Shown here piece by piece: positions 37,460-46,547 of a DNA stretch of 64,000 bases. The notes under the pieces are model-generated. The model was given only the letters and a program-made list of their open reading frames with translations. It did no database searches and was not told the origin of the DNA. This DNA comes from Lentzea guizhouensis (GTDB lineage Bacteria > Actinomycetota > Actinomycetes > Mycobacteriales > Pseudonocardiaceae), in contig NZ_CP016793.1 in the NCBI RefSeq assembly GCF_001701025.1, positions 7,068,001 through 7,132,000 of the forward strand, read 5' to 3'. Made by a program: the position numbers and the translations under genes. Position 1 is the stretch's first letter. The number at the start of each line of letters is the position of its first letter.

Positions 37460-38251
37460 ATGATCATCGTCACGGGTGCCACCGGCAGGCTCGGCCGCCA
37501 GGTCGTGGAGGAGTTGCTGGAGCACGTGCCCGCCCGTCCGGGCCGCGACTTCACCGGCCCGGCGACGCTGGACCACGCCTTCGAGGGCGCCGACCAGCTG
37601 CTCCTCGTCTCGGCCGCGATCCGGCCCGCAGGCCGCCGGGCCAGGGCCGCGGTCGACGCCGCCGTGCGCGCCGGCGCGTCCCGCGTGCTCTACACCAGCC
37701 ACCAGGCGGCCTCGCCCGACTCGGAGTTCAGCCCTGCCCGCCAGCACGCGGCCACCGAGAAGTACCTGGCAGAGCAGAACATCCCGTACACGGCACTGCG
37801 CCACGGCTTCTACACGAGCACCTTCGAGCACTACGTGCCCGCTGCCCTGAAGACCGGCCAGTTCCGCCTCCCGGCCGACGGCCCGGTCTCGTGGACCGCG
37901 CACGCCGACCTCGTCGCGGCCGACGTCGCCGCCCTCACCAAGCCCGGTCTGTTCGACGGCGCGACCCCGCCCCTCACCGCACCGGACCTGCTCGACTTCG
38001 CCGATGTGGCGGACATTCTCAGCTCGCTCACCGGCCGCGCGACCAAGCGGGTGGTCGTGGCCGACGAGGAGTGGAAGGCGGCGGTGGTCGCGCAGGGCAT
38101 GCCGGAGGCGGCGGCGGAGTTCACCCTCGGCATGTTCCGCGCGGCGCGGGCCGGTGAGTTCGCGGTCACCGACCCGGCCCTGGAAGACCTGCTGGGGCGT
38201 CCGGCGATTCCGGTGCGCACCGTGCTGGAGGACCTCCTGCGCAGCCGCTAA
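37460..38251 (+). CDS. NmrA-like NAD(P)-binding protein with an internal deletion
   Basis: 263 residues; GGAGG sits before ATG 37460. The start VTGATGRLGRQVVEELLEHVPA and later VLYTSHQAASPDSEFSPARQHAATEKYL match the QorB/NmrA group. The usual stretch after VPA, which supplies beta-2 and the NADP 2'-phosphate contacts (about 25 residues), is missing: the protein goes straight to RPGRDFTGPATLDHAFEGAD. The reading frame is preserved. Cofactor binding may therefore be altered or lost. It ends overlapping the convergent LLM gene by four bases. Confidence 0.85.
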   Translation: MIIVTGATGRLGRQVVEELLEHVPARPGRDFTGPATLDHAFEGADQLLLVSAAIRPAGRRARAAVDAAVRAGASRVLYTSHQAASPDSEFSPARQHAATEKYLAEQNIPYTALRHGFYTSTFEHYVPAALKTGQFRLPADGPVSWTAHADLVAADVAALTKPGLFDGATPPLTAPDLLDFADVADILSSLTGRATKRVVVADEEWKAAVVAQGMPEAAAEFTLGMFRAARAGEFAVTDPALEDLLGRPAIPVRTVLEDLLRSR

Positions 38252-39591
38252 GCCTGCAGCGAGTCGGCGTGGACCCGGCTGTACCGGCTCGCCGGCCGCG
38301 GCAGACCGTAGTGCTCGCGCAACGTCCGGCCGGTGTACTCCGTGCGGAACAGCTCGCGGGCACGCAGCAGCGGCACGACGTGGTCGACGAAGTCCTCCAG
38401 CCCGGACGGCAACAGCGGTGCCATCACGTTGAAGCCGTCGGCCGCACCCGTGGTGAACCAGAGCTCGATGTGATCGGCGACCTGCTCGGGCGTGCCGGCG
38501 ACGACCTGGTGGCCGCGGCCGCCGCCGAGCCTGCCGAGCAGCTGGCGCAGGGTCAGCCGCTCGCGCTCGGCCAGGTCGCGCACCAGCTCGAATCGGCTCT
38601 TGGCGCCGTTGACGTGACTGACCGGCGGGAGCTCCGGCAGGCGTTCGTCGAGCGGATGGCCGGTGAGGTCGATGCCGATCAGCTCGGTCAGCTGCCGCAC
38701 GGCGCGGGCCGGGATGATCAGGTCGTCCAGCTCCGCGGCGAGCGCCAGCGCCTCCGCCTCGGTGCCGCCGAGCACCGGGACGATGCCGGGCAGCACCTTC
38801 AGGCCGTCCGCCGGGCGCCCGAAGGCCTCGACGCGCCGTTTGATGTCGCCGTAGAACGCGGTGGCCTCCGCGTGCGTCTGCTGGGCCGTGAACACCGCCT
38901 CCGCCCACGCCGCGGCGAACGACCTGCCGTCCTCGCTGGAGCCGGCCTGCACGAGCAACGGGTGTCCCTGCGGGCTGCGGACGGCGTTCAGCGGCCCGCG
39001 CACGGAGAAGAACTGTCCTTTGTGGCCGATCTCGTGCACCTTGGTCTCGTCCGCGAACACACCGGTGGCCTGGTCGACGACCAGCGCGTCGTCCTCCCAC
39101 GAGTCCCACAGCGCGGTGACGACGTCGAGGAACTCGTCGGCCCGCCGGTAGCGCTCGGCGTGCTCGGTGTTGACCTCGCGGTTGAAGTTCTGCGCCGACC
39201 GGTCCTGCGCGGTGGTCACGATGTTCCAGCCCGCGCGGCCGCCGCTGATGTGGTCGAGCGAGGAGAACAGCCTGGCGAGGTTGTAGGGCTCGCTGAAGCC
39301 GGTGGACGCCGTCGCGATCAGTCCGATGTGGTCGGTCACCTGCGCGAGCGCGGTCAGCAGCGTGAGCGGCTCGAACCGGCCGGCGGCGGTGTGCCGGACG
39401 TCGCCCCAGATCTGCACGCCGTCGGCGAGGAACACCGAGTCGAACGTGCCGCGCTCGGCGATCCGCGCGAGGTGCTGGAAGTGGGTGACGTCGTCCAGCG
39501 CGCGCGGGTCGGTGCGCGGGTGCCGCCAGGCGGCCTCGTGGTGGCCGACGCCCATCAGGAACGCGTTGAGGTGGAGCTTGCGTGCGGACAA
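38248..39591 (-). CDS. LLM-class flavin monooxygenase (NtaA/SnaA/DszA family)
   Basis: 447 residues from a TTG start at 39591 with GGGAG seven bases before it. The family opening is KLHLNAFLMGVGHHEAAWRHP. Further marks are ADGVQIWG, the FMN phosphate region ISGGRAGWNIVTTAQDRSAQNF, then YRRADEFLDVVTALWDSWEDDA. Uses FMNH2 supplied by a reductase to oxidise organosulfur or aminocarboxylate substrates. It is the last gene of the sulfonate-type operon; its ribosome site lies in the end of the ROK gene. A C-S bond cleavage role is inferred from the operon. Confidence 0.9.
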   Translation of the reverse strand: MSARKLHLNAFLMGVGHHEAAWRHPRTDPRALDDVTHFQHLARIAERGTFDSVFLADGVQIWGDVRHTAAGRFEPLTLLTALAQVTDHIGLIATASTGFSEPYNLARLFSSLDHISGGRAGWNIVTTAQDRSAQNFNREVNTEHAERYRRADEFLDVVTALWDSWEDDALVVDQATGVFADETKVHEIGHKGQFFSVRGPLNAVRSPQGHPLLVQAGSSEDGRSFAAAWAEAVFTAQQTHAEATAFYGDIKRRVEAFGRPADGLKVLPGIVPVLGGTEAEALALAAELDDLIIPARAVRQLTELIGIDLTGHPLDERLPELPPVSHVNGAKSRFELVRDLAERERLTLRQLLGRLGGGRGHQVVAGTPEQVADHIELWFTTGAADGFNVMAPLLPSGLEDFVDHVVPLLRARELFRTEYTGRTLREHYGLPRPASRYSRVHADSLQA

Positions 39592-39593
39592 CT

Positions 39594-40732
39594 TCAGACT
39601 CCCTGCCAGACGGGGTTTCGGACGTTCAAGGGGTCGGCGTAGAGGGCGTCCAGCTGGACGGCACCGGCCGCCACGGCCAGGACGTCCTCGCCGAAGCTGC
39701 TCGCCAGCACCGCGTCGGCGGACGCGCGGGACATCGCCGCCACCTCCTCGCGCAACGCGGCGGCGCACTCGGGCAGCCGGTTCGTGCCGAGCTCGGTGAC
39801 GACGAGGACCTCGGGGTCGAGGAAGTCGAACAGCACAGCCGCCGCCCGCCCGACCACGCGCGCCCGTTCGACGAGGTGCGCCCGCGCGACGGGGGACCCG
39901 GCCACGGCGTCGTCGACCAGGTCGAAGACGTACGGCCGGCCGATCACCCCGTCCCGGTGCGCCCGCTCGGCCAGGCGGTCGGACACGGAGGCCTCGAGAC
40001 ACCCGCGCTTGCCGCACTCGCACCGGACGGCCGGGTCCCAGCGCCAGGTGCGCGACGTCACCGGCGGCGGAGCGGTCCCCGGTGGGTCCCGGCGGTCACG
40101 ATCGCCGCGTCCACGACGTTGCCGACGAACAGGTGCAGCAACGAGTCCCGGCCGCTCGCGCACCGAAGAGCTGCTCGCGGGCCAGTGCCGCGCGTGGCTG
40201 TCGACCCGCACGGGCAGCCCGGTGCGCGGTCAGCAGCGCCCCCCTCGACGTCGCGCCAGCCGAGCGAGGCGTGCCGGACGATCACGCCGTCGCGCGCGTC
40301 CACCAGCCGCCCGCCGCCACCCAGCCCGATCGGGATGTGCGCGGGGAACCGGTCGGCGTGCAGCCGCAGCAGCTCGTCCGCGGCCGTCGTCAGCACCTCG
40401 TGCGGGTCGTCGCGGTCGGTGTGCGGGATCGTCCGCCGTGCCAGGACCCGGCCGCGCAGGTCGGCCAGGCTCAGCGTGCAGAACGGGTGCGCGACGTGCA
40501 CCCCGGCCACGACGTGCCGGCTCGTGTCGATGTCCACCGGCACGTGCGGCCGCCCGATCCCTTGGTAGGAAACGGCTTCCGGTACCTCGACGAGCAGGCC
40601 CAGCTCGGTGAGCGCGGCACAGGTCCTGGTCACCGCCGCCGGGCTCAGCCCGGACGTGCGGGCGATGGAGCTGCGGGCGATCGGACCGCAGCGCAGCACC
40701 GTGCCGAGCACCACCGACGCGGCCGTGCTCAC
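39594..40732 (-). pseudogene. ROK family transcriptional regulator, frameshifted
   Basis: Start is GTG at 40732, overlapping the ferredoxin stop (GTGA). The N-terminal winged helix is GPIARSSIARTSGLSPAAVTRT, the ROK kinase-like fold follows (IPIGLGGGGRLVDARDG), and the zinc motif CECGKRGCLEA is intact near 40000. Between about 40070 and 40240 the frame slips at least four times in GC-rich sequence. ROK proteins usually sense sugars; here it is embedded in a sulfur operon and may act as its local regulator. Decay or sequence errors cannot be told apart. Confidence 0.8.
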
Positions 40733-41082
40733 GAGATCAGCGGCGGGCCGGCGGGCGAGAGCGCGGGACCGACCGCCCGCGCGGCTCCCGGCGTGCGGCC
40801 GTGACCCCAGCCGATCTGCCTGCGGTAGCTGCCGAGCAGACCGGTCTCCCGCAGGTGCTCCTCGTCGTGCGCGAACGACTCCGGTGGCAGCGGATGGGTG
40901 TGCGGCGCGACGAACAGCGCGTCGGCCGGGCAGTTCGCCTCGCACTGGAAGCACGTCTGGCAGTCGGACTGCCTGCTCACCACCGGAAGTCCGTCCGCGC
41001 CCCGGTCGAACACGTTGGTGGGGCACACCTCGATGCACTTGTCACAGGCGATGCACCGCGCCGCCGACACGAGCTCGATCAC
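40729..41082 (-). CDS. Two-[4Fe-4S] ferredoxin, AprB-like
   Basis: 117 residues from GTG at 41082 after GGAAGGAG. Two full cluster motifs: CIACDKCIEVCP and CQTCFQCEANCP (each CxxCxxCxxxCP). A cysteine-free tail of about 60 residues follows, as in the beta subunit of adenylylsulfate reductase. It overlaps the upstream flavoprotein stop (GTGA), so the two are translationally coupled and probably form a complex that passes electrons to or from FAD. The partner's identity gives this call its weight. Confidence 0.88.
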   Translation of the reverse strand: MIELVSAARCIACDKCIEVCPTNVFDRGADGLPVVSRQSDCQTCFQCEANCPADALFVAPHTHPLPPESFAHDEEHLRETGLLGSYRRQIGWGHGRTPGAARAVGPALSPAGPPLIS

Positions 41083-42568
41083 GCCGCCGCTCCTTCCGGT
41101 CGGGCCCACACCTCGTCCAGCCCGCCGGAGGTGATCCGGTGGTGCCGGGCGGGGTCGAGCTCGGGGTGGTCGAGCCGCTTGGCCATGCCGCGGCTCTCGT
41201 CGCGCAGCAGGGCGGAGGTGTACATCCAGCGGGCGTGCGCGACCATGGCCACGCCCAGACGCCGTCCAGCTCCCGACGCCGCCCGCAGCACGTCGCCGTG
41301 GCGCAGGTAGTTTGTCGTACGGCAACACCTCGGCCTGCACGGTCCGACGACCTCGGTGACGTCGACGTCCTTCGGCACCGGTGGGACGCAGTCCGCACGC
41401 CCGCCGCGCTCACCTGCCGGGTGCCGCGGCCGAGCGCGCGGGCGAACCGGGCGGCGGTCCGGCCCGCCCACGAACCGGACGAGATCGCCCACGCCGCGTT
41501 GTGGCTGCCACCGCCGGTGAACCCGCCGCAGATCAGCTCACGCGTGGCGGCGTCACCGGCGGCGTAGAGGCCGGGAACCGTGGTGGCGCAGCCGTCGTCC
41601 ACGATCCGGATGCCACCGGTGCCGCGCACGGTTCCCTCGGCCAGCAACGTGACGGCGAACGGGTCGGTGAACGGGTTGACGCCCAGCCGGTCGAAGGTCA
41701 GGAAGAAGTTGGGCTGCGCCAGCCGCATCGCCTTCTGCGCGGCCTCGTCGGCTAAGTCCAGCTTGCAGAACACCTTCTCCATCAACAATGTTCGCGCGAT
41801 CACCGACCGGCCGCGCTGGCTGCCGGCGCCTTCGAGCACCTCGCCGTTCGCCCGGTAGAAGGTGGCGTAGTTGTAGAACGCGGTCTTGGTGACCGAGGTG
41901 TGCTCGGGCGCGATGCCATAGGCGTTGGAGAACTCCATGCCGGACAGCTCGGCACCGGTCTCGGCGGCGAGCAACGTCCCGTCGCCGGTGTTCACGTTGC
42001 AGCCGAACGCCTTGCTCAGGAACGCGCACCCGCCGGTGGCGAGCACCACCGCGCCCGCGCGCACCTCGAACGGCCGGCCTGCCTGCCGCCGGTACCCGGC
42101 CGCGCCCGCCACCGCGCCGTCCGCGGCGGTGAGCAGTTCGGTGACCGGGCTGTGGTCGAGGACGGTCACACCGGCGCGCTTGACCCGGATCCGCTGGCGC
42201 CGCATGTACTCCGGGCCCTGCAGACCGTTGCGCAGCGGTGTCCCGTCCGGTCCGGTGGGAAACGGGTAGCGCCCGGCCTCGGCCAGCTCGTTGACCCGCT
42301 CGTAGGTCTCGTCGAGCACCCTGGCCATCCACCGGCGGTCGGCCAGGTACCCGCCGAGTGCCTCCCGGCTGGACATCGCGGCCTCACGCGCTTCGGGGTC
42401 CGGTGGTACGTACCAGACGCCGGTGCCGACGGACGCGGTCGCACCGCTCGTCCCGCAGTACCCCTTGTCCGCGAGCACCACCGAGGCGCCCTCTTCCGCT
42501 GCTTTCAGCGCGGCCCACGTGGCGGCCGGACCGCCGCCGACCACCAGCACATCAGCTGTGAGTGTCAT
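41079..42568 (-). pseudogene. FAD-dependent oxidoreductase, fumarate-reductase/AprA-like flavoprotein subunit, frameshifted at the C-terminus
   Basis: ATG 42568 follows GAGGAG nine bases past ssuC. FAD loop VLVVGGGPAATWAAL, then GYCGTSGATASVGTG, the flavin-binding VVLATGGCAFLS, and near residue 340 GLYAAGDAATRELICGGFTGGGSHN. This is the fumarate reductase/succinate dehydrogenase/AprA fold. The C-terminal part (VDVTEVVG, VQAEVLPYD, NYLRHGDVL) is spread over frames by slips near 41420, 41342 and 41312. It is coupled to a two-cluster ferredoxin. Likely oxidises or reduces a sulfur compound, but no member in such an operon has a function known to me. Confidence 0.82.
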
Positions 42569-42577
42569 GACGGCTCC

Positions 42578-43429
42578 TCATGCTCCGACCGGGACGCGCC
42601 AGGAGGTGAACCGGCGCTCCAGGCCGACCAGCACCTGGTTGAACAGCACGCCGATGGCGGAGAGCGTGATGATCCCCGCGTACATCTGCGGGATGGCGAA
42701 GTTGAACTGCGAGGCGTTGATCAGGTAGCCCAGGCCCGCCTTGGCGCCGACCATCTCCGCGGCCACCAGCACCAGGATCGACAGCGCGCCGGCCAGCCGG
42801 ATCCCGGTGAACACGGTCGGCACCGCCGAGGGCAGGATCACCTTCTGGAACAACCGGAACCCGCTCAGGTCCATCGACCGCGCGAGCCGCAGCAGCGTCG
42901 GGTCCACCGCGCGCACCGCGCTGATCGTGTTGAGCAGGATCGGCCAGGTGCACGCGTAGAACACGATCGCGATCTTGGACGTCTCGCCGATGCCCAGCAG
43001 CAGCACGAACACCGGCAGCAACGCGAGCGCGGCGGTGTTGCGGAACACCTCCAGCAGCGGGCTGAGCAGCGTCGCCACCGGCTTGTACCAGCCGATCAGC
43101 AGACCGAGCGGCACGGCGGCCGCGACCGCGAGACCGAAGCCCGACAACGACCTCACGAGGCTCGCCTGCGTGTTGTCGAGCAGCTTGCCGCTCACCGCGA
43201 GGTCCCACCACGACGCCATGACCGTGGAGAACGGCGGCAGGAACGTGGCGTCCACCAGGCCGAGCCGGGGCGCGACCTCCCAGACGGCCAGCAGCGCGGC
43301 GATGGCCACGACCTTGCCGACACCGGTCAGCACCGCGTCGGCCAGCTTCGCCAGCGTCCGCCGTGGCCGGGACGGTGGCGTCGTGATGCTGTTCTCGGTC
43401 CGTGACGGGCTTTCCAGCAGTGCGGTCAT
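42578..43429 (-). CDS. ssuC: Aliphatic sulfonate/taurine-type ABC transporter permease
   Basis: 283 residues, overlapping the ATPase stop (ATGA). Six membrane helices; the EAA loop reads RLARSMDLSGFRLFQKVILPSAVPTVFTGIRLA. The FNFAIPQMYAGIITLSAIGVLFNQ end is typical of SsuC/TauC/NrtB permeases. Imports a small organic anion with the adjacent ATPase and binding protein. Symbol given for family resemblance; the substrate might be another sulfur compound. Confidence 0.88.
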   Translation of the reverse strand: MTALLESPSRTENSITTPPSRPRRTLAKLADAVLTGVGKVVAIAALLAVWEVAPRLGLVDATFLPPFSTVMASWWDLAVSGKLLDNTQASLVRSLSGFGLAVAAAVPLGLLIGWYKPVATLLSPLLEVFRNTAALALLPVFVLLLGIGETSKIAIVFYACTWPILLNTISAVRAVDPTLLRLARSMDLSGFRLFQKVILPSAVPTVFTGIRLAGALSILVLVAAEMVGAKAGLGYLINASQFNFAIPQMYAGIITLSAIGVLFNQVLVGLERRFTSWRVPVGA

Positions 43430-44317
43430 ACGCCCACCACCTCCTTCTCCTGGAGCTGGGCACGGGAGACCTCGTCGTGCAGCAGGTCCCAGATGCGGTG
43501 CCGGTAACGGGCGAACTCGGTGCTGGAGCGCAGGTCGTCCTGCCGGGACCGGTCGCCGAGGTCGATCGCCACGGTGTCCTTGACCCTGCCCGGCCGCGAG
43601 GTCAGCACGACGACCCGCTGCCCCAGGTAGACCGCTTCGTCGATGGAGTGCGTGATGAAGACGACGGTCTTGCCGGTGCGCTGCCAGATCCGCAGCAGCT
43701 CGTCCTGCAACGACTCGCGGGTCTGCGCGTCCAGGGCGGCGAAGGCCGCGAGGTCAGCACGACGACCCGCTGCCCCAGGTAGACCGCTTCGTCGATGGAG
43801 TGCGTGATGAAGACGACGGTCTTGCCGGTGCGCTGCCAGATCCGCAGCAGCTCGTCCTGCAACGACTCGCGGGTCTGCGCGTCCAGGGCGGCGAACGGCT
43901 CGTCCATCAGCACGACGGACGGCTGCTGGGCCAGGGTCCGCGCCAGCTGGACCCGCTGCCGCATGCCGCCGGACAGCTGGTGCGGGTGCCGGTCCTCGAA
44001 CCCGGTCAGCCCGACCAGGTCGAGGAACTCCCGAGCCCGCTCCGCGCGCTGCCGGCGCGGGACACCGGTCGCCTCCAGCCCGAACTCGACGTTGCCCTGC
44101 GCGGTCCGCCACGGCAGCAGCGCGTACTGCTGGAAGACGATGCCGCGGTCCAGCCCAGGACCGGTGATCCTGCGCCCGTCCAGCAGGATCTCGCCCTCGC
44201 TCGGTTCGGTGAGACCGCCGAGCAGGTCGAGCAGCGTCGACTTGCCGCACCCGCTGGGACCGACCAGGACGACGAACTCACCGCGTTCGACGTCGAGGTC
44301 GACGGTGTCGACCGCGT
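43426..44317 (-). pseudogene. ssuB: Sulfonate/taurine-type ABC transporter ATPase, N-terminally truncated and disrupted by a 152-bp duplication
   Basis: Walker A VGPSGCGKST, Q-loop FQQYALLPW, signature LSGGMRQRVQLAR, Walker B VVLMDEPFAALD and FITHSIDEA identify a TauB/SsuB ATPase. The first 15-20 residues and start codon are missing: the sequence joins the end of the binding-protein gene at about 44316. A perfect 152-bp tandem duplication then repeats the coding sequence from DAQTRESL to LTSRP and shifts the frame, since 152 is not a multiple of three. Without the extra copy the frame runs cleanly to 43426. As given, it cannot make a normal ATPase. Confidence 0.85.
43592..43895. repeat. 152-bp perfect tandem duplication
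   Basis: 43592-43743 is repeated without mismatch at 43744-43895, directly abutting. It lies within the ATPase gene. The two copies share only a short GGCCGCGAG at the junction. Either a recent duplication or an assembly artefact. Confidence 0.95.
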
Positions 44318-45246
44318 GAACTCGTTGGTGTACAGGTCGGTGAGCTTCACCTGGTCCTTGGTGACCTCGCCGCGCTCGGCGAGCCAGTCGACCCAGATGG
44401 AGAGCTCCTGGTCGAGGATCTTGCCGCCCTTCTGCGCCACACCGGTGGACTTCCAGTACCGCAGCGCCGCGGGGTCCTCGTTGCGGCCCCGCCTGGTGAG
44501 GACGTCGACCTTGCGCTTGACCACCTCCTCGCGCGGCGTGGTGCGGCTCCACTCGATCGCCCTGGCGATGCCACTCGTGAACGTGCGGACCGTGCCGGGG
44601 TTGTCCCGCAGGAACTTCTCTTGCGCACGCCGCCCTTCTCCAGCGCCTTGTCGCGCAGGATGCCGCCGAGCACGCCGACCTCGATCTGCTTCTGCCGCAC
44701 CGACTGCTCGGTGTTGACCGGCGGCACGACGATCGGCTCGACCTTCTTGATCTCGTCCTGGCCCAGGCCCGCGCGCTTGAGGTAGATGCCGAGCATGGCC
44801 TCGTGGTGCGCGCCGAGCGTGTTCATCCCGACCTTCTTGCCCAGCAGGTCGCGCGCGGTGCGGACGGGGCTGTCGTCGAGCACGTAGAAGCCGCTGTAGG
44901 CGTTCTCGTCGGAGCCGTAGTAGCCGATCACCGACTTGATCGGCGCCCCGGCCGCCTTCAGCTTGACCACGGCACCGTTGAACGCGCCGCCGAAGTCCAC
45001 CTGCCCGGTGGCGGCGGACTGGATGTCCTGCGGGCCGCTGATCGTGTTGCCGACCCACTCGAGCTCCACGTCACCGAGGTAGCCGAGCTCCGCGGCCAGT
45101 TCCGGCAGCGTCACGTCACCGGCCCAGCCCTGGTAGCGCAGCGTCTTGGTCTCCACCCCCGCGCCCGCCGCCGTGGAACAGCCGACGGTCGCCGCTGTCA
45201 GTCCGAGTAGGGAGAGGCCGAGGAAGTTCCGTCGCGTGGTGGTCAC
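44318..45246 (-). pseudogene. ssuA: Sulfonate/taurine-type ABC transporter substrate-binding lipoprotein, frameshifted
   Basis: GTG 45246 follows AAAGGA. The signal is NFLGLSLLGLTAATVGCS with a lipobox Cys. The NMT1/SsuA-like body includes TLRYQGWAGDVTLPELAAELGYL, GAPIKSVIGYYGS and LLGKKVGMNTLGAHHEAMLG. One base is missing near 44625, after EKGGVR; the frame resumes with EKFLRDNPGTVRTFTSG. The 3' end runs straight into the ATPase coding sequence without a stop, so a short stretch between the genes has been lost. It would bind a sulfonate-like ligand outside the membrane. Confidence 0.85.
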
Positions 45247-45286
45247 GGCAGGTCCTTTGCTGAAGGGAAACGGGCACGCCGAACAA

Positions 45287-45303
45287 CGGGACGATCAGTC
45301 CCG
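45287..45303 (-). terminator. Candidate attenuator hairpin between the leader peptide and ssuA
   Basis: CGGGAC-N5-GTCCCG, 6-bp perfect stem, followed on the minus strand by TTGTT. It lies after the leader stop and before the ssuA ribosome site, where ribosome stalling on the leader could change folding. Confidence 0.5.
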
Positions 45304-45323
45304 AGTGGAATGAGGAGGTGGTT

Positions 45324-45407
45324 TCAGCGACCGGTGCGACAGAACGCGCTGGCGTGCCGTCGGAGATCGACGTGCCGGCGCGAGGTGAGGAAGGCGGCTT
45401 GGCTCAC
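45324..45407 (-). CDS. Sulfur-responsive leader peptide (actinobacterial putative leader peptide family)
   Basis: 27 codons from GTG 45407 to TGA 45324. The core [14 protein letters not shown] matches the RRHxDLxRxxSAxC pattern of short leader peptides found upstream of sulfur-assimilation and sulfonate genes in actinobacteria, where translation of the Cys codon is thought to gate downstream expression. It lies 78 nt before the ssuA start with a small hairpin between. No good ribosome site is seen, so translation may be leaderless or weak. The match of motif and context makes this a confident call despite its size. Confidence 0.85.
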
Positions 45408-45635
45408 GGACGGAGCGTCACATCCGGATCGGGCCGGGTCAACGGCCGGAACGGACGTCCCACATCATGGAGGCGGACTGGACGCCGGCTCCTATTTTTC
45501 ACGCTGGAAGGAACTCGCCGGATCGATTTGTTCCAGCTGCTGAGAACATTCGAATTCTCCCTGCCGGATGTTGCGCGGGGGAGCGGACCTCAGCACGGTG
45601 GAGAGCAGGTTCGCCTCCACGAAAGGAAGTTCGCG

Positions 45636-46547
45636 ATGACCGCACAGCTTTCCGCCACCGTCGCCAAACTGGGTGCGGGCATCGGCGCGCGGATCGACGG
45701 CGTCCGCCTGGGCGGTGACCTGCCGGACCACGTCGTCGCGGAGGTCAGGGCGGCGTTGCTGGCCCACAAGGTCGTGTTCTTCCGCGACCAGCACCACCTG
45801 GACGACGCGGGGCAGCTCGCGTTCGCGCGGCTGCTCGGGCAGCCGACGCTGGCCCACCCCACGGTGAAGGGGGAGAGCCACACCAACGTCCTGGCGATCG
45901 ACTCCGACCAGGGCAGGGCGAACAGCTGGCACACCGACGTCACGTTCGTCGACCGGGTGCCCGCGATCAGCATCCTGCGCGCCGTCGAGCTCCCGCCCTA
46001 CGGCGGCAACACGGTGTGGGCGAACACGGCGCGCGCCTACGACGAGCTGCCCGTGGCGTTGAAGGCGCTCGTGGACCGGCTGTGGGCTGTGCACACCAAC
46101 CTCTACGACTACGCGGGTGACGTCGACGCAACGCGCATCGGCGGCGTCGACGTGAAGGAACAGGCCTACCGCCAGGAGTTCGAGTCGCTGCGCTACGAGA
46201 CCGAGCACCCGGTGGTGCGCGTGCACCCCGAGACCGGTGAGCGCGTGTTGCTGCTCGGCCACTTCGTCAAGCGGATCGTCGGGGTGAGCTCCGCAGAGTC
46301 GAAGGCGATCTTCGAGCTGCTGCAGAACCGGGTGACCCGGCTGGAGAACACCGTGCGCTGGCAGTGGGCCGACGGCGACGTGGCGGTGTGGGACAACCGG
46401 GCCACCCAGCACTACGGCGTCGACGACTACGACAACGCCCGGCGCCGCCTGCACCGGATCACCATCGCCGGCGACGTGCCGGTGAGCGTCGACGGCGTCG
46501 CCAGCACCACGCGCGTGGGCGACGCCGCGCACTTCTCCGAGCTCTGA
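45636..46547 (+). CDS. TauD/TfdA family Fe(II)/2-oxoglutarate dioxygenase
   Basis: 303 residues from ATG at 45636 after GAAAGGAAG. The iron facial triad is H99 and D101 (WHTDVTF) and H259 (NRATQHYGV). A C-terminal Arg in RRRLHRITI binds 2-oxoglutarate. TauD-type enzymes hydroxylate sulfonates (taurine, alkylsulfates), releasing sulfite. Divergent from the sulfonate operon, it is the probable desulfonating step. It ends before a strong hairpin. Confidence 0.93.

Follow-up and report, generated by a model that had tools for sequence, protein, structure and literature searches.

Between the divergent genes tauD (plus strand) and ssuA (minus strand, start 45246) of Lentzea guizhouensis lies a short reading frame, which raises the question of whether it encodes a genuine leader peptide and, if so, how its translation could act on the sulfonate-uptake genes that follow. 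In the initial annotation of the window (the whole stretch of 64,000 nucleotides that was analysed), a GTG-started ORF of 27 codons had been placed on the minus strand of this intergenic region, and both its coordinates and its frame were confirmed (Table 1).

Beyond the genes for the ATPase and the permease, Pfam identifies an FAD-binding protein, a 4Fe-4S protein and a luciferase-like monooxygenase; the ORFs of the FAD protein and of the monooxygenase (41042-42568 and 38248-40023, respectively) have ends that look merged or frame-changed. Compared with L175 and with its counterpart in the genus mate Lentzea jiangxiensis (L174), ssuA of the window misses about 16 codons and changes frame, and the frame of ssuB is broken because the length of the duplication inside it is not a multiple of three. 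These disruptions reflect either decay or an assembly error, and despite them both the leader and the promoter-like element that precedes it are intact.

Table 1. Position, strand and description of the features discussed in the text (window coordinates; own-genome leaders are listed with the genes that follow them)
Feature	Position	Strand	Description
tauD		plus	TauD-family dioxygenase; PF02668
Predicted promoter	45414..45442	minus	TTGACC 45442-45437, 17-nt spacer, GACGCT 45419-45414, 6 nt before GTG
Leader ORF	45324..45407	minus	GTG start, 27 codons, stop TGA
Regulatory Cys codon	45339..45341	minus	TGT, codon 23; single Cys codon of the leader
Predicted helix, 5' strand	45330..45343	minus	Cys codon and following bases; RNAalifold columns 65-78, MFE fold
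Leader-ssuA gap	45247..45323	minus	77 nt, C-rich, G-poor; contains hairpin 45303-45287
Shine-Dalgarno-like site of ssuA	45253..45258	minus	AAAGGA, by eye
Predicted helix, 3' strand	45228..45249	minus	GCC and GTG start codon 45249-45244, ssuA +13..+19 45234-45228; RNAalifold
ssuA-like	44347..45246	minus	NMT1-type substrate-binding protein; PF09084; frame change near 44611-44620
ssuB-like	43426..44552	minus	ABC ATPase region; interrupted by perfect 152-bp tandem duplication 43592-43895
ssuC-like	42578..43429	minus	ABC permease; PF00528
Leader L011 (own genome)			Precedes BPD_transp_1 permease (Pfam)
Leader L012 (own genome)			Precedes nitrite/sulphite reductase (Pfam)
Leader L013 (own genome)			Precedes DUF4395 protein, rhodanese gene behind
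Leader L014 (own genome)			Precedes Cys/Met-metabolism PLP enzyme (Pfam)

A member of a known leader peptide family

The peptide matches NF042934, an NCBIfam model of type cis_reg_atten named 'putative leader peptide', over profile positions 2-19 of 19 with a score of 35.8 bits against the curated cut-off of 27 (E 4.3e-9), which bears out its initial assignment to the RRHxDLxRxxSAxC leaders of sulfur genes; the accompanying statement that standard gene callers skip the ORF holds in part only, because NCBI does provide a model for peptides of this type. When the genome, one contig of 9.998 Mb, was searched with NF042934 in all six frames, the window leader was the top match (34.1 bits, E 3.7e-7) among 23 at E<=10, of which 4 lie above the cut-off and 6 have E<=0.01. 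At E<=0.01 the model matches 146 of 150 family genomes (138 above the cut-off), the four genomes without a match all belonging to one genus (g27), and it finds nothing in the 14 control genomes; at E<=10, matches appear in 10 of the 14 controls, none of them above the cut-off. Rfam at gathering scores gave nothing in the window, and the Ms4527A and Ms5788A models scored the peptide at 20.4 and 17.9 bits, both below their cut-off of 45. Because the NF042934 match is strong here, family-wide and absent from the controls at E<=0.01, the ORF does not owe its existence to chance; judged by its sequence, it is a genuine conserved leader peptide that belongs to this family.

Four of the five other leaders found in the same genome at E<=0.01 precede genes named by Pfam (Table 1). 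The fifth, L010, which lies at 1501-1554 of its locus (5257147-5257200 of the genome) and scores above the NF042934 cut-off, has no recognisable gene directly downstream; leaders closely resembling it stand upstream of ROK-family genes (PF00480) in L153 and L164, and a related leader-like match precedes an annotated ROK protein on a Pseudonocardia plasmid, beside sulfonate transport genes.

Conservation upstream of ssuA

An alignment of ssuA leaders from related genomes had been set beforehand as a check on the ORF, and it shows the leader directly upstream in 14 of the 16 loci whose SsuA is at least 81% identical. Within the genus, an SsuA orthologue occurs in 7 of 24 genomes (that of the window included), 6 of which have the leader directly upstream. 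The two close loci without the leader core, L065 and L075, correspond by position to those of Lentzea cavernae and Actinocrispum wychmicini, which also lack it among the named loci described below (L176 and L179); both keep the promoter-like element and the ribosome site of ssuA, and can be regarded as natural deletions of the attenuator. No leader was found within the 600 nt scanned at 16 more distant SsuA loci (L078-L093), a set to which 25 further SsuA matches do not belong.

A second scan of 67 named SsuA loci recovered a leader in 31, from Lentzea, Saccharothrix, Herbihabitans, Streptomyces, Kitasatospora, Actinocorallia, Actinomadura and one strain filed as Nocardia, and none at the loci of Mycolicibacterium, Mycobacterium, Rhodococcus and Acetobacter; divergent leaders could escape it, because a hit had to have the Cys and agree with the motif at 6 of its 8 positions within 420 nt.

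Within the 14 close leaders, the twelve codons from R10 to A21 (codons 10-21) differ in amino acid at two positions (18 and 20), and nine of the twelve vary synonymously. A chance ORF, or a functionless remnant of a decayed one, might be suspected from the disrupted frame of ssuA in the assembly, the 152-bp duplication in ssuB and the absence of the leader from two relatives; set against the retention of the peptide amid synonymous variation, and of the promoter-like element and position across several genera, the probability of this reading is next to nil.

A predicted promoter and leaderless start

In all 14 leader loci the sequence TTGACC is followed, after a spacer of 17-18 nt, by an NANNNT element (beginning with G in 12 loci and with C in 2) that ends 6-7 nt before the GTG; a sigma-70 scan of the region detected no promoter. 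With this spacing, transcription would start at the GTG itself, and the ssuA leader mRNA is predicted to be leaderless.

A similar spacing preference emerges from the wider set of leaders, for which 129 loci (within L009-L173) were examined and 128 found to have the motif, the exception being L159. The 128 include the 14 ssuA leaders and are not a random sample, because they were drawn largely from the best-scoring of the matches listed; they were chosen by motif, and many are near relatives of one another. For the 124 of these 128 listed leaders that have a candidate ATG or GTG start, [TG]ANNNT ends 7 nt before it in 30 of 175 cases and at any other distance between 0 and 25 nt in at most 7; once the 14 ssuA leaders are removed, the figures are 21 of 152 and at most 5. 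A -10-like element 5-9 nt before the start is found in only 43 of the 124 listed leaders and a Shine-Dalgarno-like site in 15, so that the prediction of leaderlessness does not extend to most of them.

An invariant UGU codon and constraint beyond the peptide

The single Cys codon is TGT in 14 of 14 close ssuA loci and in all 34 distinct ssuA-adjacent leaders, against 0 of 15 in the downstream-gene background; in the genes of the window TGT accounts for 3 of 78 Cys codons. Codon choice is similarly biased at the seventh motif position, where Arg is CGA in 28 of 33 ssuA-adjacent leaders (background 0.02), and at the fifth, where Asp is GAT in 23 of 33 (background 0.06), in a set of leaders picked by motif whose relatives are not independent. 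Synonymous variation together with this biased choice of TGT, CGA and GAT points to selection on both the peptide and the RNA. As far as the aligned leaders tell, the invariant rare UGU codon and the apparent codon constraint beyond the peptide are what is new here.

Over the whole set, exactly one Cys codon lies between the motif and the stop in 95 of the 128 listed leaders, and the Cys codon is TGT in 86 and TGC in 42. Its choice tracks the gene downstream: among the 108 clustered leaders listed, TGC is the codon in 32 of the 39 that precede a cluster identified by Pfam as sulfite reductase through its member L012, in all 8 that precede the TauE cluster (Pfam for L047) and in 1 of the remaining 61, TGT thus preceding nearly all other genes. 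In the listed leaders, the prevalence of TGC before the sulfite reductase and TauE clusters counts against the model of ssuA control set out below.

Conservation of the peptide could also have a different basis, namely nascent-peptide arrest, in which the conserved 14-residue chain would slow the ribosome from within the tunnel and so sharpen the stall at the Cys codon. The retention of non-Cys residues in spite of synonymous changes at the 14 loci is what this reading would lead one to expect, as is the position of the Cys at codon 21-23 in 34 of 41 listed leaders with -10-supported starts (ssuA leaders included). Conservation need not mean arrest, however, because these codons are also under constraint at the RNA level (CGA for 28 of 33 Arg, GAT for 23 of 33 Asp); moreover, the dataset was motif-chosen and the reading rests on sequence, so that we regard arrest as distinctly improbable.

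The gap between leader and ssuA

A small CGGGAC/GTCCCG hairpin followed by TTGTT, to which the initial annotation had drawn attention, is indeed present in the gap at 45303-45287. If this element were an intrinsic terminator, the leader would act by classical transcription attenuation, and the gaps of L064, L066 and L072 do fold clearly better than shuffled sequences (z -3.3, -4.4 and -3.8); the mean over the 14 loci is -0.97. Against this, the hairpin in its exact form is confined to 3 of the 14 leader loci, one more having a variant; L067 and L068, which keep the leader in front of a gap of 43 nt, have no hairpin of any form; and the fold of the window's own gap is no better than that of its dinucleotide shuffles (z -0.77). 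In addition, the hairpin has no U-tract after it, and the sole terminator-like hit in a scan of 45150-45700 lies at 45644-45632, outside the stretch from leader to ssuA. An intrinsic terminator was for these reasons rejected, which makes classical attenuation very improbable and leaves the proposed readthrough control without its terminator; the hairpin stands as a stretch of text in the window.

A hairpin inside the leader (GUCG/CGAC) was likewise unsupported as a general feature, its cluster-averaged z over the listed family being -0.26; in the 31 named ssuA leaders its mean z is -0.78, with 97.1% of cells paired and no covariation.

Rho-binding sites are C-rich and G-poor, and so is the gap, for which reason Rho may contribute. 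The skew of C over G averages 0.24 in the gaps of 88 of the 128 listed leaders (C exceeding G in 99%) compared with 0.00 upstream of the leaders, and is 0.25 for the 19 ssuA gaps of Streptomyces type and 0.35 for the 10 of Lentzea type. In 99 of the 128 listed gaps it is 0.26 (C>G in 93%) versus 0.07 in 184 control 5' regions (C>G in 65%) called by a simple script. Such a skew could instead reflect avoidance of structure.

These figures argue for a mechanism based mainly on Rho-dependent termination, in which exit of the ribosome would expose the C-rich gap to Rho, whose site a ribosome held up at the Cys codon would shield. The Streptomyces-type gaps, with a median of 213 nt, are long, and Rho has been suggested for mycobacterial cys leaders, although the prediction is called rather weak in the part of that paper available (Seliverstov 2005, PMC1262725). 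On the other hand, the 43-nt gaps of L067 and L068 are short for a Rho site, and base skew by itself is no proof of Rho binding. As the principal mechanism Rho therefore seems unlikely, if with an appreciable chance of being right; Rho and the hiding of the ssuA start, described below, can operate together.

A helix predicted to hide the ssuA start

In the minimum free energy fold of the window's own sequence, whose overall z is -2.1, the segment containing the Cys codon is paired with the start of ssuA. RNAalifold recovers the same arrangement from the 14 loci, pairing columns 65-71 with 196-202 (ssuA codons 5-7) and columns 72-78 with 181-186 (the GTG start), and the cells of this helix are paired in 96.2% of cases, compared with 23-53% when it is slid. 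Covariation is no greater than in shuffles, since both strands hardly vary: one of 13 pairs has changed on both sides, and 141 of 500 shuffles did as well. The 3' strand encodes, by eye, an apparent twin-arginine signal.

When a ribosome is modelled at the Cys codon, the mean cost of opening the ssuA start over the 14 loci falls from 16.5 to 13.7 kcal/mol; an early ribosome gives 14.5 kcal/mol and one at the stop codon 13.6 kcal/mol, and the near equality of the latter value with that for the Cys codon counts against the model. Relative to shuffled upstream sequence, the relief brought by the stall has a mean z of 1.69, and the closed state without a ribosome is hardly harder to open (16.4 versus 16.0, mean z 0.56). 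Five loci, L064, L066, L067, L068 and L074, show clear relief. In L071, L072, L073 and L077 it is close to zero or below, and the window itself shows a modest relief (2.9 versus 0.3, sd 2.1).

A wider view of such pairing comes from 108 of the 128 listed leaders, in 19 gene clusters, that have a Shine-Dalgarno score of at least 4, a gap of 25-170 nt and 40 nt after the gene start (L077, whose gene start is miscalled, was left out). For the segment from -12 to +9 about the Cys codon, complementarity to the leader's own gene start exceeds that to swapped starts (z -2.5; 14 of 2000 permutations, uncorrected for the ten windows tried). In these listed leaders, segments further upstream of the Cys codon were no better complements (1064, 1650 and 1608 of 2000), and neither was the gene stretch +25..+50 (846 of 2000). 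Of the 19 Streptomyces-type loci, 17 have the sequence that best complements the Cys segment inside the gap, which is 156-270 nt long, and not at the gene start. The ssuA cluster shows a strong effect of the synonymous Cys codon on the pairing (-4.0 versus -0.3 kcal/mol); a general link between codon choice and gene-start pairing was unsupported in the listed leaders (8 of 17 TGT clusters, 2 of 3 TGC clusters). Taken on the strength of these models, a start-hiding helix is plausible in the Lentzea group.

A model for cysteine-dependent control of ssuA

We consider it likely that the leader upstream of ssuA mediates attenuation in response to cysteine starvation, acting mainly on the initiation of ssuA translation. 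Transcription would begin at or next to the leader GTG, to judge from the promoter spacing, and ribosomes would load on the 5' end of the mRNA. With ample Cys-tRNA, the ribosome would pass the single UGU, terminate four codons later and leave, upon which the Cys-codon segment could pair with the start region of ssuA, whose translation would then be poor. With scarce Cys-tRNA, the ribosome would wait at the UGU and cover that segment, so that the predicted helix would melt, the ssuA start would stay open and the operon would be made.

That a leader with a Cys codon controls the sulfonate operon had been part of the initial proposal; family, position, the invariant Cys and the sulfur genes behind other copies of the leader agree with it, and what falls away is readthrough of a terminator. 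The response of the operon to cysteine is one that we infer, and the sequences favour control at the initiation of ssuA translation, with Rho as a possible addition.

A more far-reaching idea is that RRHxDLxRxxSAxC leaders constitute a widespread dual sensor of actinobacteria, in which a ribosome conditioned by the peptide and a single slow UGU would together form a sharp cysteine switch, its threshold being set for each operon by the Cys codon (UGU for transporters, UGC for sulfite reductase) and by the Rho-prone or start-hiding RNA downstream. We put this forward as speculation that is improbable in its entirety.

Relation to known attenuators

If the preferred reading of control at ssuA translation initiation is correct, sulfonate uptake in Lentzea, Saccharothrix, Streptomyces and Kitasatospora is likely to be under a cysteine signal read by the ribosome, and cysteine control would thus be extended beyond the mycobacteria, where it was shown. 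The fixed UGU, the peptide-independent codon bias, the C-rich gap and the two relatives that lack the leader make such a mechanism directly testable. In the literature searched, with most subscription papers outside it, no experiment on this locus was found.

As a member of NF042934, the window leader is a short ORF before a sulfur operon, and the description of that model contains no mechanism beyond 'leader peptide'. The TnaC leader of E. coli senses free tryptophan, arrests the ribosome at its own stop codon and exerts Rho-linked control. The window leader resembles it in that a peptide motif lies several residues ahead of the proposed stall site, and in a possible link to Rho; unlike the free tryptophan of TnaC, the signal proposed here is scarcity of Cys-tRNA.

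Candidate leaders of cys operons were described in Mycobacterium, P. acnes and B. longum by Seliverstov et al. 2005 (PMC1262725). As far as the available text of that paper goes, they share with the window leader a Cys near the stop, the lack of a conserved terminator hairpin and pyrimidine motifs in the gap; they differ in having runs of Cys and in preceding cys and cbs genes, with no ssu operon among those described.

The closest parallel may be found in M. smegmatis, where, according to the portions available of PMC9031893 and PMC13236596, cysteine-dependent translation attenuation was shown by Canestrari et al. 2020; the former describes these attenuators as leaderless ORFs of small size in which the Cys codons are contiguous. 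In the accessible parts of PMC9031893, PMC9094748 and PMC13236596, polycysteine short ORFs of mycobacteria, likewise leaderless, are cited as cysteine-responsive attenuators, and the same logic of relief by stalling is set out in those citing papers (PMC9031893, PMC13236596). Within what these sources describe, the window leader is distinguished by its one UGU in place of contiguous Cys codons, by the ssuA operon and by its conserved peptide motif. It has in common with the mycobacterial polycysteine leaders a Cys near the end and a sulfur operon downstream, and it would share their leaderless start, as predicted from the promoter spacing, their dependence on ribosome speed at Cys codons and the pairing relieved by the stall, which is the general logic of translation attenuation. 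By analogy, the window leader thus probably works most like the cysteine attenuators of mycobacteria, from which this class is already known.
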